DNA from: Idiomarina loihiensis
GTDB lineage: Bacteria; Pseudomonadota; Gammaproteobacteria; Enterobacterales; Alteromonadaceae
Length of the DNA: 64,000 nucleotides
Assembly (NCBI RefSeq): GCF_024584785.1
Contig: NZ_CP074112.1
Location: 2,790,001-2,854,000, forward strand
Direction: 5' to 3'
The first letter of the stretch is position 1. Every line of letters starts with the position of its first letter. The position numbers were made by a program, and so were the translations under genes. Below are positions 44,710 to 49,969 of the stretch, piece by piece. The notes beneath the pieces were generated by a model. That model searched no databases and was not told the origin of the DNA. It saw only the letters and a program-made list of their open reading frames with translations.

Positions 44710-46866
44710 ATGAAAAAAACACTTATTGCGTTAGCATTGTTAAGTGCCCCGGCGCTAGCTGACGAAGGCATGTGGATGCCGCAACAACTACCTGACATCG
44801 CTAAGCAGTTAAAAGCAGCTGGCTTAAAGCTAAACCCGAAAGAGCTCACTCAGCTGACTGAGTTCCCGATGGGAGCTATCGTAAGTTTGGGCGGTTGTTC
44901 AGCATCTTTTGTGAGCCCGCAAGGGTTAGTGGCGACTAACCACCACTGTGTTTATAACAGCATTGCTTACAACTCAACTCCAGAAAACGATCTGCTGGCT
45001 AATGGTTTCTTAGCTAAAGCTCTTAGCGACGAAGTAGCGGCAGCTCCTGGTAGCCGTATTTATGTGACCAAAGCCGTTGACAATGTCACCGATAAAATCA
45101 TTGATAAAGCTACGGCTAAGCTTACTGGTCAAGCTCGTATTAATGCCATTGAGGCCAACCAAAAAGCTTTAGTAGCAGCCTGTGAAGCTGACGAAGGACA
45201 CCGCTGTACGGTCGCTTCTTACTATGGTGGTTTAGAGTTTTATCTCATTAAGCAATTAGAAATTAAAGATGTACGCTTAGTTCATGCTCCAGCCGAAGGG
45301 GTGGGCAAATTTGGTGGCGATACTGACAACTGGATGTGGCCGCGTCACACCGGTGATTACAGCTTCTATCGTGCTTATGTAAGCCCTGAAGGTAAATCAG
45401 CTGAATATTCAGAAGATAACGTGCCTTATCAGCCAGAATTTCATATCAAGTTAGCTAAAAAGCCACTGCAAGAAGGCGACTTCGTGATGGCATTAGGCTA
45501 TCCAGGCCGCACTAACCGTCATCGTCTGCCATCTGAAGTGCTAGATACCTTTGAATGGAGCTACCCGAATACGGTTAGTCGCTTTAAAGAAACGTTAGAC
45601 ATCATTGCTGAGCAAACTGCGGACAACAAAGATGCTGAACTGAAATACGCAAGCCGTGTGGCGGGTTTGAATAACTACATGAAGAACCGTCAAGGCATGC
45701 TCGATAGCTATGCAGAAAGCGATTTATTAGAGCGCAAGCAAGCTGAGCATACAGCGTTAAAAGAGTGGGTTAATAGCAATAAGAAGAATCGTGCTGCTTA
45801 TGCCGCTGATTTAGAGGCCATTGAAGCTCTTTTGAAAAAGGCCCAGGACGAAGGTCGCAAGAGTTATACGTTAGATGTGGCTACACCACGTTTATTGGGT
45901 ATGGCCAAAGCTCTGTATCGTTTGAGTAACGAGCAAACCAAGCCTAATGCGGAACGTAAAGCCGGATTCCAAGAGCGTGATTTACCACGCTACCGTGCCT
46001 TCGTTGCAGGCTTAGATCGTAGTTTTGATGTGAGCGTTGAAAAAGCCTTAGATAAGCACTTTTTAGCGCGTTACGTTGCGCTACCTAAGACCGAGCGCGA
46101 TGCTCAGTTTGATGCCGCTATGGGCATTACTGATAATATGAGCACCAACGATTTGCATGCCTTAATCGACAGCTGGTATGCCAGTACCTTATTTACTGAT
46201 GGTAAGGCTCGGGCAGCCTTGTTAGAGCAAAGTCCTGAGCAGTTTGCGCAGAGCTCTGATCCTTTCATTAAAGCGGCTGTAGCTATGTGGGATTATGACC
46301 GTGAGCAAGAAGCAGAAGCCGAAGAGCACGCAGGTAAGGTTCAGCAAGCTTACGCAAACTACATGAAAGCAAAAATCGCCTTTATGAAGGCGCAAGGTAA
46401 AGCTGTTTATCCAGATGCGAACAGCACCTTGCGGGTCACCTACGGTAATGTGACAGGACGTGCCCATGGAACTCATGATGGTACTGCGTGGACTGCCTTC
46501 ACTACCTTACGTGGGATTACCGATAAAGCTACCGGTGAGGGCGAGTTTAATGCGCCACAAGCGCAATTAGACAAGATCAAGGCAAAAGACTACGGTGATT
46601 ACTATGTTAAGAGCTTAGACTCGGTACCGGTGAATTACCTAGCAACCCTTGATATTACTGGCGGTAACTCAGGCTCTGCGGTATTAAACGATAAAGCAGA
46701 ATTAGTTGGTCTCGCCTTTGATGGAACGCTTGATTCGATTATTTCTGATTGGGATTTCAATCTAGATAATACTCGCTCTATTCAAGTAGATTCTCGCTTT
46801 ATGCTTTGGCAAATGGAAAAAGTAGACGGCGCAGATGAACTATTGCGTGAGCTTGGGGTTAAATAA
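44710..46866 (+). CDS. S46 family dipeptidyl-peptidase (DPP7-like)
   Basis: A periplasmic serine exopeptidase of 718 residues that releases dipeptides from the N-termini of oligopeptides. The Sec signal covers about residues 1-17. The chymotrypsin-fold catalytic residues are visible: His79 in Thr-Asn-His-His-Cys and Ser654 in Gly-Gly-Asn-Ser-Gly-Ser. A large helical domain is inserted between them. Eighteen residues after the serine is Gly672 in Phe-Asp-Gly; DPP7 enzymes have Gly there and acidic-specific DPP11 enzymes have Arg, so a hydrophobic P1 preference is expected. Its terminator has been split by an IS4-type element 39 bases after the stop. Confidence 0.92.
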   Translation: MKKTLIALALLSAPALADEGMWMPQQLPDIAKQLKAAGLKLNPKELTQLTEFPMGAIVSLGGCSASFVSPQGLVATNHHCVYNSIAYNSTPENDLLANGFLAKALSDEVAAAPGSRIYVTKAVDNVTDKIIDKATAKLTGQARINAIEANQKALVAACEADEGHRCTVASYYGGLEFYLIKQLEIKDVRLVHAPAEGVGKFGGDTDNWMWPRHTGDYSFYRAYVSPEGKSAEYSEDNVPYQPEFHIKLAKKPLQEGDFVMALGYPGRTNRHRLPSEVLDTFEWSYPNTVSRFKETLDIIAEQTADNKDAELKYASRVAGLNNYMKNRQGMLDSYAESDLLERKQAEHTALKEWVNSNKKNRAAYAADLEAIEALLKKAQDEGRKSYTLDVATPRLLGMAKALYRLSNEQTKPNAERKAGFQERDLPRYRAFVAGLDRSFDVSVEKALDKHFLARYVALPKTERDAQFDAAMGITDNMSTNDLHALIDSWYASTLFTDGKARAALLEQSPEQFAQSSDPFIKAAVAMWDYDREQEAEAEEHAGKVQQAYANYMKAKIAFMKAQGKAVYPDANSTLRVTYGNVTGRAHGTHDGTAWTAFTTLRGITDKATGEGEFNAPQAQLDKIKAKDYGDYYVKSLDSVPVNYLATLDITGGNSGSAVLNDKAELVGLAFDGTLDSIISDWDFNLDNTRSIQVDSRFMLWQMEKVDGADELLRELGVK

Positions 46867-46892
46867 ATACCTTGTTATAGCTAATAAAAACG

Positions 46893-46905
46893 GGCCTTTC
46901 TGGCC
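46893..46905. repeat. Left 13-bp target-site duplication of the IS4 element
   Basis: GGCCTTTCTGGCC abuts the left end of the element and recurs exactly at 48337-48349. It is itself a small palindrome and was the centre of the S46 gene's terminator hairpin. Confidence 0.92.
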
Positions 46906-46966
46906 TAATGCCGATCAGTTAAGAAATATTTTAGCGATCGGTTGACCGATCCTCCCAATGGATCAG

Positions 46967-47003
46967 AATCCGTAGTTAGTTAATTCTAGCTACGGATTTT
47001 TTT
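46967..47003 (+). terminator. Hairpin with T-run directly before the transposase start
   Basis: AATCCGTAG (46967-46975) pairs with CTACGGATT (46990-46998), and a T-run at 46997-47003 touches the ATG at 47004. It should stop transcription entering from the S46 gene and leaves no room for an SD, so outside transcripts would give little transposase. Confidence 0.75.
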
Positions 47004-48327
47004 ATGCAACTCACCACAGCACTCGCAATAGCCAATGGATATGCTCCAAACTCTGAAGAACTGGGTAAATTATCCGACATTCTTGATCCTGATTTAATTG
47101 ATGAGGCGTTTGATAAGGCCGGTGTCGGCACGGTCAGGAAAAGACGTTTACCCTTGGATATGGTGTTGTGGAGTATTATAGGCATGGCCTTATATCGCAA
47201 CACCAGCGTGTGGGACATCGTTGGACAAATGAATATTATGCTGCCTGGTCGACGGGCACTTGTAGCTCCAAGCGCTATTCCTCAAGCACGACAACGCCTT
47301 GGTGAACATGCCGTACAATCGGTATTTGAACATACGCAAGCGATTTGGAATGAACAAGCCGAGCATCCAACATGGCATGGCTTACGATTGCTTGGCGTCG
47401 ATGGTGTTGTTTGGCGAACCCTGACTCCAATGAGAATCAGCAAGCGTTCAAAAGAGTTCAAATCAATTTGGTGAGCAATATCCTCAAGTGCGCATGGTCT
47501 GCCAAATGGAATTAACGAGCCATCTTCTAACGGGAAGCCAATTTGATTGTGCTTCAACAAATGAGATGGTGCTTGCAGAAGGACTTATCGAATCGACAGC
47601 TAACCATTCATTGACCCTATTCGACCGAGGTTTTTACTCGTTAGGACTCCTTCACAAGTGGCAAAATACCGGTGTTGAACGTCACTGGCTTATTCCAATG
47701 AGAAAAGGAACTCAATATAAAGTGCTCAGGAAAATAGGCCGTCACCAAAAGCTCATTGAGCTGACAACCACGCCACAATCACGCAAAAAATATCCGAATT
47801 TACCTGAGACCATGCAAGCTCGAATGTTAACACGGACTATTGATGGTAAAGAGCGCACCATATTAACGTCGATGGTCGATCCATTGCGTTATCCAAGCGA
47901 AGATATTGTTGAGCTTTATGAGCAACGTTGGGAAATCGAACTCGGCTATCGAGAAATGAAACAAGTTTTACTTCAAAATCACTACACGCTACGGAGCAAG
48001 CGACCAGAAATGATACGTCAAGAGCTATGGGGAATACTCTTAGCGTACAATATTATTCGCTATCAGATGGTGAAAATGGCGAGCAAAATTAAAGGGATAT
48101 ATCCAAATCAACTGAGTTTTACCTCGTGTGCTACAGCTATTATTAACTGGCTATACACGGCTTCACTTAATTCAGCGGGGAATATCCCGAAAACTCTCGA
48201 ACATCTTCAAGAAATTGCAGAGCATTACGTTTTGCCAATAAGGCGAACCGAGCGGGTTTACCCACGAGAAGTTCGTTCAAAACCTCAGAAATATGCGAGA
48301 AAAAAATGCCAGTCAGCTCTTAACTGA
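47004..48327 (+). pseudogene. IS4 family transposase, frameshifted
   Basis: The first part (47004-47474) and second part (readable from about 47449, with a Met at 47488, to 48327) both match E. coli IS4 transposase (InsG) end to end. Between them the best-matching frame changes twice. Near 47420, after Arg-Thr, the matching text [11 protein letters not shown] is in a second frame. Near 47451 it passes to a third frame, [11 protein letters not shown]. Each change equals loss of one base in a C-run and an A-run. The DDE residues remain visible (Gly-Val-Asp-Gly-Val, Phe-Asp-Arg-Gly-Phe, Trp-Glu-Ile-Glu-Leu-Gly-Tyr-Arg-Glu). Either the gene is dead or these are homopolymer sequencing errors. Confidence 0.85.
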
Positions 48328-48335
48328 CTGGCATT
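48305..48335 (+). terminator. Hairpin formed by the IS right end
   Basis: AATGCCAGTCAG (48305-48316) and CTGACTGGCATT (48324-48335) form a 12-bp stem that includes the right inverted repeat and the transposase stop codon. There is no T-run inside the element, so any termination would rely on the flanking host sequence. Confidence 0.5.
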
Positions 48336-48336
48336 A

Positions 48337-48358
48337 GGCCTTTCTGGCCCGTTTTTTT
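48337..48358. terminator. Right duplication plus remaining half of the S46 terminator
   Basis: GGCCTTTCTGGCC (48337-48349) is the second target copy. It is followed by CG and seven T (48352-48358). Joining the two flanks restores a perfect stem CGGGCC-TTTCT-GGCCCG with A- and T-runs, which shows that the host site was an intrinsic terminator. The remaining copy can still fold a short GGCC stem before the T-run. Confidence 0.8.
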
Positions 48359-48373
48359 ATCCCCCATAAGGGC

Positions 48374-49969
48374 TTAATGAGTTAACAGTTGTAGTGCTTG
48401 TTCGTTCACGGAGGTGGCTTGGTTATTCAGTACCACCACGCCTTTAGAACCATCTAGATAAAAGCCCACAAAACTACTAAAGCCACCGGTTTGGCCATTG
48501 TGCCAAGCATAAGGGCGCTGCTCGTCGTCGTAACTTATCATCCACCCTAGTGCTTGCGCACAACAGCTACTTTGCTGCAGGCGTGGTTGTAGTAAGTTCG
48601 TTACGATAGGGTCTTGGTTGGCAGATTTAGCCATTAAAAATTGCACATAACGGCTCATGTCTTCGACCGTCGCCAGTACTGCTCCGGCCCCAGCTAAGCT
48701 CTGGAAAGTCCAGTGCGGTACTACCTGGCCCAAGCTATTATGGCCCTGCGCTAGGTTTAACGCGGGTGGGCTATCGGCTAAGGCTAGTTGAGCGTGAGTC
48801 ATGCCGGCTGGGGTAAATAAAACCTGCTTCAGCAATACCGCTAAGCTGGTTTGTTGCCGTTTCGCAATGGCTTCAGCCAGCACGCCATAAGCGAAGTTCG
48901 AATAGAGATGGCTGCCATCCGTGAGTTCTACCTCAGCTAAAGCTTCGGTTAATTCAGTCAGACCGTAGTGGGCATATGGATTGGTTGCCGCAGCACCATC
49001 AAAAAGATTCGCTGGCAGCCTTGGCAAGCCGCTGGTGTGGGTTGCCAGTTGTTCTAGCGTGATAGTACTGGGGGATTGGCTGAAAATACTCTGTAATTTG
49101 GTCTTAGCTTGTACGCTATCGCTAGCAATGGCATCAGCCAATAAGTAGCTCACCATGGTTTTGCTCACCGAGCCTATTTCGTACAAGGTGGTCGCGTTGT
49201 GATTGCCGTAGAAAGTAGGTTTGAAGCCACTAGCGGTGACGATAGCAGCAGCTCCGCCTTGCTCTCCAAAACTTGGTTGCTGATAATCTTGATTGTTGGC
49301 AGCCACATTTTTTAGGAGGGTAAGCGGTAAGGTCGCACCCTGTTTAAATTCGCCTTGGTAACCACCACGAATGGCGCTACCGCGATAACTAGCTTGCAGC
49401 ATTGGCGAGTTGAATTGCAGCGCCTCATCACTGATCTGTAAGTTGCTGACGGGGATACCATAGCTTTGTTGGCGCGGACTATCTAAGGTAGCGAGATAAC
49501 CTTCAGCGAGCACTGCAACATGAAGCACCAACGGCAGTTGCGTCTCCTCATCAATCGCGAGATTGCCCCGATAGGCACCTTCAAAGTTCAAGCGATTGAT
49601 AGCATCACCGGTTAGCTTATAAAAGGTGATGTCGTAATTTCGGCCTTGTTTAAATTGCCCTCTAAGGTTGCCATCCACAAGGTTGCCATCCACAAGGTTG
49701 CCGGTAAAACTCAGGCTGGCACGGTCATCAGCAAAACTGACACTGGTAGCGGATAGGTTGATGCGAGTAGGCTTGATATCAAATGCGCCTTGGTTCGGAC
49801 TATCGTAATGCAGTTGGTTGTCTCGAATGGTTAAGCCGAGGGTGATAGCAACGCCTGGTTGCACTTCTAATTTGGCGCGCCAGAGGCCATCAAGGTTGTT
49901 TGCTTGGGCGGGAATACTTGCAGCAACCAACAGCGCCACAGCAAAGAAAACTTGCAGCAGTTTACGCAT
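48374..49969 (-). CDS. Exported beta-lactamase-fold serine hydrolase
   Basis: A 531-residue protein with a Sec signal (about 1-23), a strand-rich N-terminal domain (about 25-215) and a class C beta-lactamase/esterase-type domain (about 225-530). The catalytic motifs are Ser-Val-Ser-Lys (SxxK), Tyr-Ser-Asn (YxN) and His-Asn-Gly-Gln-Thr-Gly-Gly (the KTG equivalent). Such proteins include esterases, D-aminopeptidases and PBP4*-like enzymes; beta-lactamase activity is unlikely to be the main role. The N-terminal domain contains a tandem Gly-Asn-Leu-Val-Asp repeat coded by a 15-base repeat (49664-49702). Confidence 0.85.
   Translation of the reverse strand: MRKLLQVFFAVALLVAASIPAQANNLDGLWRAKLEVQPGVAITLGLTIRDNQLHYDSPNQGAFDIKPTRINLSATSVSFADDRASLSFTGNLVDGNLVDGNLRGQFKQGRNYDITFYKLTGDAINRLNFEGAYRGNLAIDEETQLPLVLHVAVLAEGYLATLDSPRQQSYGIPVSNLQISDEALQFNSPMLQASYRGSAIRGGYQGEFKQGATLPLTLLKNVAANNQDYQQPSFGEQGGAAAIVTASGFKPTFYGNHNATTLYEIGSVSKTMVSYLLADAIASDSVQAKTKLQSIFSQSPSTITLEQLATHTSGLPRLPANLFDGAAATNPYAHYGLTELTEALAEVELTDGSHLYSNFAYGVLAEAIAKRQQTSLAVLLKQVLFTPAGMTHAQLALADSPPALNLAQGHNSLGQVVPHWTFQSLAGAGAVLATVEDMSRYVQFLMAKSANQDPIVTNLLQPRLQQSSCCAQALGWMISYDDEQRPYAWHNGQTGGFSSFVGFYLDGSKGVVVLNNQATSVNEQALQLLTH
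49664..49702. repeat. 15-bp in-frame tandem repeat
   Basis: AAGGTTGCCATCCAC is present 2.6 times in a row. The unit is a multiple of three and codes for Gly-Asn-Leu-Val-Asp, so copy-number change would not break the hydrolase gene. Confidence 0.85.

Follow-up and report, generated by a model that had tools for sequence, protein, structure and literature searches.

Why does an insertion sequence in Idiomarina loihiensis sit exactly at the centre of an intrinsic terminator? The element lies in the 64,000-nucleotide stretch of contig NZ_CP074112.1 that was analysed (the window), and a preliminary description of this DNA proposed that structured termination sites may be a preferred landing place for such elements. 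We compare the window copy with its relatives in the same genome and in other genomes. The comparison argues for a cut-and-paste element of the IS4 subgroup whose transposase very probably selects intrinsic terminators as target DNA.

The window element and its target

A perfect 13-bp direct repeat, GGCCTTTCTGGCC, at positions 46893-46905 (repeat list, D6) and 48337-48349 brackets an insertion sequence of 1431 bp on the plus strand (46906-48336). The ends of the element are TAATGCCGATCAGTTAAG and TAATGCCAGTCAGTTAAG, with the left terminal inverted repeat at 46906-46923 (plus strand) and the right one at 48319-48336 (minus strand). Outside the duplication lie, on the left, the A-run of a split terminator with the outer 5′ half of its stem (AAAAACG, 46886-46892, from the sequence and the empty-site fold) and, on the right, the outer 3′ stem half and T-run (CGTTTTTTT, 48350-48358, from the sequence). 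The joined flanks read AAAAACGGGCC-TTTCT-GGCCCGTTTTTTT, bordered by a tract on either side, and the folding energy is -17.9 kcal/mol; the split terminator has a 6-bp GC stem and 7 T's. The duplication is the apex of this terminator, GGCC-TTTCT-GGCC, laid out as 4 bp of stem, a 5-nt loop and 4 bp of stem. The repeat and the fold bear out the preliminary description, which had placed an IS4-type element at the centre of the terminator and had read the duplication as the hairpin apex.

The A-run begins 20 nt past the stop codon of a peptidase S46 gene (44710-46866, plus strand; PF10459, E 2.4e-245). Of 25 genomes in the genus, 12 others gave a match to this gene, and in 9 of these 12 a hairpin with a T-run, judged by eye, follows shortly 3′ of the stop. 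Because of this position and of the terminators beside the orthologues, the target was most likely the intrinsic terminator of the S46 gene. On the far side of the element lies a convergent gene for a serine hydrolase of the beta-lactamase family (48374-49969, minus strand; PF00144).

The transposase of the window copy is frameshifted. Its N-terminal fragment, recognised from the intact homologue L002, occupies the ORF at 47004-47474, and its C-terminal fragment the ORF at 47488-48327 (ORF list), both on the plus strand. L002 is a single ORF that matches NF033592, the NCBI IS4 transposase model (E 4.5e-86), and contains the Pfam domains Nterm_IS4 (PF13006, 2.1e-26) and DDE_Tnp_1. D133 and D208 are conserved in it, and the Y-(2)-R-(3)-E-(6)-K signature is present (Y306, R309, E313, and K320), with conforming DDE spacing; we infer the roles of these residues in L002.

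For the IS4 subgroup, the available passages of De Palmenaer et al. 2008 (PMC2266710) give ends of the form -AATR, a length of 1400-1650 bp, a YREK motif, and duplications of 10-13 bp. Both ends of the element read TAATGCC, in agreement with -AATR, the four copies in its own genome are 1431-1433 bp long, and their duplications are 13, 10, 10, and 11 bp (9-14 bp in the whole panel). Since ends, size, and duplication lengths fit this tabulation, the window element is assigned to subgroup IS4 of the IS4 family. The family named in the preliminary description stands; within it the element is of subgroup IS4 and not IS231, as the CAT ends of the IS231 subgroup are replaced here by TAATG.

All four copies found in the own genome are centred on terminators. 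A pair of copies with about 88% identity lies directly 3′ of the two elongation factor Tu genes, which suggests that the paralogous terminators were hit by separate insertions. The transposase is intact in L002 and L004 and broken in L003; the two intact copies could still mobilise L003 and the window copy.

Insertion sites across genomes

Relatives were collected from several sources. In the family sample, at least 134 of 395 genomes have a match, and 80 regions were hand-picked from the matches listed. Other regions come from a species-genome scan (80 of 183 confirmed relatives), an Aeromonas caviae record, E. coli, and further genomes of the phylum. A set of 165 loci comprises 90 with a target duplication (80 distinct sites), 69 with ends and no duplication, and 6 with no ends. 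A site counts as a terminator when RNAfold gives a hairpin at most 1.5 nt from the duplication centre, with at least five pairs and at least three GC pairs, and when at least six T in eight are found on either strand.

By this final test, which was fixed after the sites had been inspected, a terminator is centred on the duplication at 118 of 129 distinct sites, selected by hand and non-randomly from the matches listed (76/80, 9/12 in E. coli, 15/19, and 18/18). Random positions of the same DNA have a centred terminator in 81 of 20,000 cases. The same test finds none at 11 sites occupied by other IS4-family groups, four of which (G400) hold elements under the family-model cut-off (41.5 bits vs 115). 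With this survey of other copies and other genomes, the preference for terminators proposed in the preliminary description extends far beyond the window copy.

Two earlier versions of the test were abandoned. A perfect-stem hairpin finder, which scored 60/80 sites by a loose and 49/80 by a strict setting (background, 309 and 7 of 165,680 positions), missed GU pairs, mismatches, and long loops, and an intermediate RNAfold test labelled some clear terminators as hairpin only. Flags for overlap with ORFs (39/129 sites) were also discarded, being judged unreliable in GC-rich genomes.

The terminator test fails at 11 of the 129 sites. In E. coli, 16 loci give 12 distinct sites, since three loci duplicate others and L263 has no direct duplication. 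A hairpin is missing at three of the 12, the K-12, paaE, and yicI copies, of which two are inside genes. Among the nine terminator rows for E. coli, three have the element in the raiA-bamD terminator in the same orientation and may go back to a single event; counted once, they would give 7/10. The preliminary description had named copies at unstructured sites and differing duplication lengths as evidence against its proposal; such sites do occur, as a minority, and the lengths do vary (9-14 bp), yet in step with the hairpin.

At L263 (E. coli adhE-tdk), the loop sequence of the terminator is AGAA to one side of the IS4 copy and TTCT to the other, which looks like an inversion of the apex on one side. 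A second copy in E. coli, L261, occupies the same terminator in the opposite orientation.

Flanks available from one end only give a similar picture within the genus: a hairpin is at the end in 24/24 and an A-run is also present in 21/24, compared with 103 of 9,352 background stretches. Among the 69 loci with ends and no duplication, the 36 rows with a repeat identity of at least 13 were re-read (33 others were left out); 6 are false end pairs, 19 lie at contig ends (16 pass the flank test), and 11 have two flanks (10 distinct). An A-run and an apex hairpin are present on both flanks of L118, L143, L162, L193, and L218, nearly so in L156 and L196, and on one side only in L130. L109 and L141 fail, the latter being a Vibrio penaeicida copy with neither an exact duplication nor a hairpin. 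In L118, L162, L193, and L218 the two flanks resemble halves of two different terminators, as expected from recombination between copies.

In another set of 40 regions, three gave no boundary, and L337-L340 and L342 were excluded, their boundaries being unsure. On re-inspection, the sites of L342 and L339 lie outside any terminator. L337, L338, and L340 showed no credible ends; judged by eye, two of them (L337 and L340) resemble IS4-type transposases. Distant relatives are represented by one site each: the Photobacterium and Acinetobacter plasmid copies are inside terminators, an E. coli plasmid copy is in a hairpin without a T-run, and the Rhodococcus (actinobacterial) and cyanobacterial copies are at unstructured sites with no hairpin. 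No convincing ends were found for the Burkholderia, Streptomyces, and Frondihabitans copies.

The Aeromonas caviae record NZ_AP026896.1 (L224; 4.94 Mb) is labelled a plasmid though chromosome-sized, and carries two IS4-type elements, one in 4 copies and one in about 15. Another member of the IS4 family, distinct from these and roughly 1.2 kb long (G657; L334-L336), which we take from its target to be IS186-like, has no terminator at its 3 sites by the same test. Its duplication is a G/C-run palindrome at two of the three (GGGGAAATCCCC; CCCCGATGGG), without A/T arms, and G657 is perhaps another palindrome-targeting group.

Sequence and structure of the target

What feature of the terminator is read? 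Positions -7 to -5 relative to the edge of the duplication carry the strongest signal of all, with 90-94% A when both edges are pooled, and stem positions show little beyond a preference for G/C. When arms are exchanged between sites, complementarity decreases from 0.75 to 0.40 (sd 0.02; 1000 shuffles, 80 sites), indicating that pairing persists in the absence of any consensus in the stem. The strength of the A signal raises a rather unlikely alternative, in which the transposase reads only the A-tract and T-tract, as bent double-stranded DNA, around a GC-rich centre; hairpins would then be incidental, terminators being the commonest such sequences. The hairpin-less paaE and yicI sites retain A/T arms, and thus arms can suffice. 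Emphasis on the arms is also found in the available passages of the 2008 survey (PMC2266710).

The fall in complementarity on arm exchange speaks against this alternative, and so does a comparison of 98 insertion sites, those of E. coli and Aeromonas excluded, with background sequence that has the same arms. The arm pattern is present at 91/98 insertion sites, with a hairpin at 88 of the 91 and at all 78 that have AAAA/TTTT arms. Background matches to AAAA-N14..21-TTTT have a centred hairpin in 32/220 cases, in 27/99 when the centre is GC-rich, and in 15/32 when they are also noncoding by a mask based on crude ORF calls (78/78 vs 15/32, Fisher p 1.5e-11). On these counts, A/T tracts alone do not explain the terminator preference.

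The geometry of insertion bears on the same question. Duplication length rises with the distance from tract to tract (rho 0.53, p 1e-9, n=115), and the left spacer equals the right spacer at 76/115 sites. A ruler based on the loop was rejected, as its correlation is weak (rho 0.27, vs 0.55 for tract distance, n=85). By the crude finder, the duplication is exactly on the hairpin dyad at 54/80 sites. The two strand-transfer points flank the hairpin centre symmetrically, in most cases 2-4 nt within the A-tract on one side and the T-tract on the other. Together with the arm exchange, these features suggest that the terminator is likely recognised through DNA structure. A symmetric transposase dimer could place both cuts just within the tracts, at an offset that hardly varies, and the palindrome could favour the transposase-target complex; self-complementarity of the DNA, and not a base consensus in the stem, would then govern targeting.

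The signal could also come from transcription, with the transposase finding paused or terminating RNA polymerase, or the nascent hairpin, and not the DNA itself. The terminators hit include those of elongation factor Tu and, in E. coli, adhE and crr, genes that we presume to be highly expressed. The orientation of the elements is not biased towards whichever tract is longer (45 vs 54, 30 equal, p=0.42), and hairpins without a strong T-run are targeted as well (L138, L231, L239, and L240), so that coupling to transcription appears improbable. It is more improbable still that insertion is broad and that selection purges gene-breaking copies: terminators are gene-safe, and an ORF of at least 90 aa ends within 150 nt at 112/129 sites (a count without a background figure), but purging can neither centre the duplication on the dyad nor tie its length to tract spacing, and the pattern is absent from other IS4-family groups.

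Predicted inward-facing terminators and transposase promoter

An element that selects terminators would destroy the one it enters. The window element carries a predicted inward-facing terminator at each end. The left one (46965-47003, plus strand; repeat list, I6) is directly before the ATG, with a hairpin at 46965-47000 and a T-run to 47003, and folds at -20.4 kcal/mol. The right one (48298-48335, minus strand; I7) has its hairpin at 48305-48335, in which the right repeat pairs with its inner complement, and its T-run at 48304-48298, and folds at -21.0 kcal/mol. The corresponding values are -17.9 kcal/mol for the destroyed terminator and -6.4 and -7.2 kcal/mol for its remnants.

The arrangement is general among the relatives. 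An inward hairpin with a T-run is present at the left end of 61/62 and the right end of 62/62 non-redundant elements (in the orientation of the transposase), the left one as a rule just upstream of the start codon. The same finder scores 26/496 internal segments, and 16/62 and 1/62 end regions read outward. With stems of at least nine pairs, the counts remain 61/62 and 62/62, compared with 6/496 internal segments. In several elements (among them L067, L199, L216, L310, L320, and L326) the best right hairpin is further in and not formed from the terminal repeat, which suggests that its function has been selected for. The left stem has 21 distinct 5′ arms with pairing maintained, and pairing decreases to 0.72 when arms are swapped; as the left stems were found by pairing, only this drop is informative. 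No inward terminators are present in the 8 other-group elements from five genomes, and none were found in the Acinetobacter copy located inside a terminator. Because the element has its own inward terminators, the change in read-through at the window site is probably small. The inward pair would replace the destroyed host terminator in both directions.

The left terminator overlaps a predicted transposase promoter. In the window copy, the -35 box is TTGACC (46942-46947, plus strand), and the -10 box, CAGAAT (46964-46969, plus strand), overlaps the start of the terminator hairpin, following the 16-bp spacing pattern. The best -35/-10 pair is spaced by exactly 16 bp in 61/62 non-redundant elements, at varying distances from the element end, and its -35 is mostly TTGAC, TTGAA, or TTGAT. 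The promoter score is about 1.2 sd above that of shuffled sequence (8.2 vs 7.1, sd 0.95), and the fixed spacing is the stronger point. The -10 begins at most 3 nt from the first hairpin base in 59/61 elements, and the predicted start would leave 2-4 nt of the 5′ arm in 53/61.

An RNA entering from outside would contain the whole hairpin and stop, whereas the element's own RNA would not, because it starts inside the 5′ arm. We infer from this layout that host read-through would be halted upstream of the transposase gene and that the element's own transcript would escape termination. In IS10 and IS50, the transposase is guarded against read-through by the same principle.

Phylogeny of the transposases

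A tree of 65 transposases separates 61 rows from 4 other-group rows with support of 98/97; the tree is midpoint-rooted, and long branches meet at this split. The 61 rows comprise 52 with terminator sites, 3 with non-terminator sites, and 6 distant relatives, and the non-terminator sites are scattered within this part of the tree. Terminator targeting seems to be an old trait of the IS4 subgroup in gammaproteobacteria, one that the family as a whole does not share.

Nterm_IS4 (PF13006) is present in 6/6 tested terminator-type transposases, L002 included, and in 0/4 other-group transposases, two of which have DUF4372 and two neither domain. In view of this distribution, the targeting function may lie in PF13006.

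Discussion

The selection of intrinsic terminators by the transposase would account for the sites, and the layout of the element suggests a fuller model, which we offer tentatively as a plausible one: a DDE transposase reads self-complementary (cruciform- or hairpin-capable) terminator DNA, the tract distance sets the duplication, and matched inward terminators, with a promoter that starts within one of them, make the insertion a replacement of terminator for terminator and any 3′ gene end a possible safe harbour.

If terminator selection is true, the intrinsic terminator is the defined target of a widespread lineage to which IS4, the founding element, belongs, and the conserved 'target arms' of 2008 are accounted for. 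The element would adjoin highly expressed genes with little damage and could spread at low cost to the host. Places of insertion would become predictable, and the element would offer a natural means to mark or map terminators. The choice of target by DNA structure would be testable in E. coli K-12. The putative promoter within a terminator arm would be a compact way to ignore read-through yet keep the element's own expression.

Several known systems share parts of this picture. De Palmenaer et al. 2008 (PMC2266710) describe conserved 'target arms' in the IS4 subgroup; in the main text as available, the word 'terminator' is absent and 'palindrom' appears only in a program name, and its passages on the subgroup do not describe element-borne terminators with an overlapping promoter. 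E. coli IS4 resembles the window element in its Nterm_IS4 and DDE domains, end terminators, promoter layout, and 9/12 terminator sites; it differs in that 3/12 sites, the K-12 site included, have no hairpin. IS4 was reportedly found in the pheST attenuator in 1984. IS231A, whose target is GGG-N5-CCC and which is said to have been the subject of a study on bent target DNA, belongs to the same family and shares a palindromic target and a variable duplication of 10-12 bp, but it is of another subgroup, with CAT ends; we know of no A/T arms or link to terminators for it. Group IIC introns insert adjoining intrinsic-terminator hairpins; they are retroelements with an RNA-based mechanism and no DDE transposase.

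Tn916 is likewise mobile and has a terminator that insulates it from incoming transcription (PMC11658703), but near one end only, and it is an integrative conjugative element for which the passages available mention no terminator targeting. The BrickBuilt MITE of Porphyromonas gingivalis (PMC4596501) is non-autonomous and, in the case described in the available text, is beside and not inside a terminator. Among open-licence titles and the openings of abstracts, terminators are not named as a target of IS4-type elements; a prior description is possible, as the subscription literature is mostly outside that range. Compared with these systems, the window element is a member of a known IS subgroup; its target appears to be newly recognised, and its regulatory layout matches that target.
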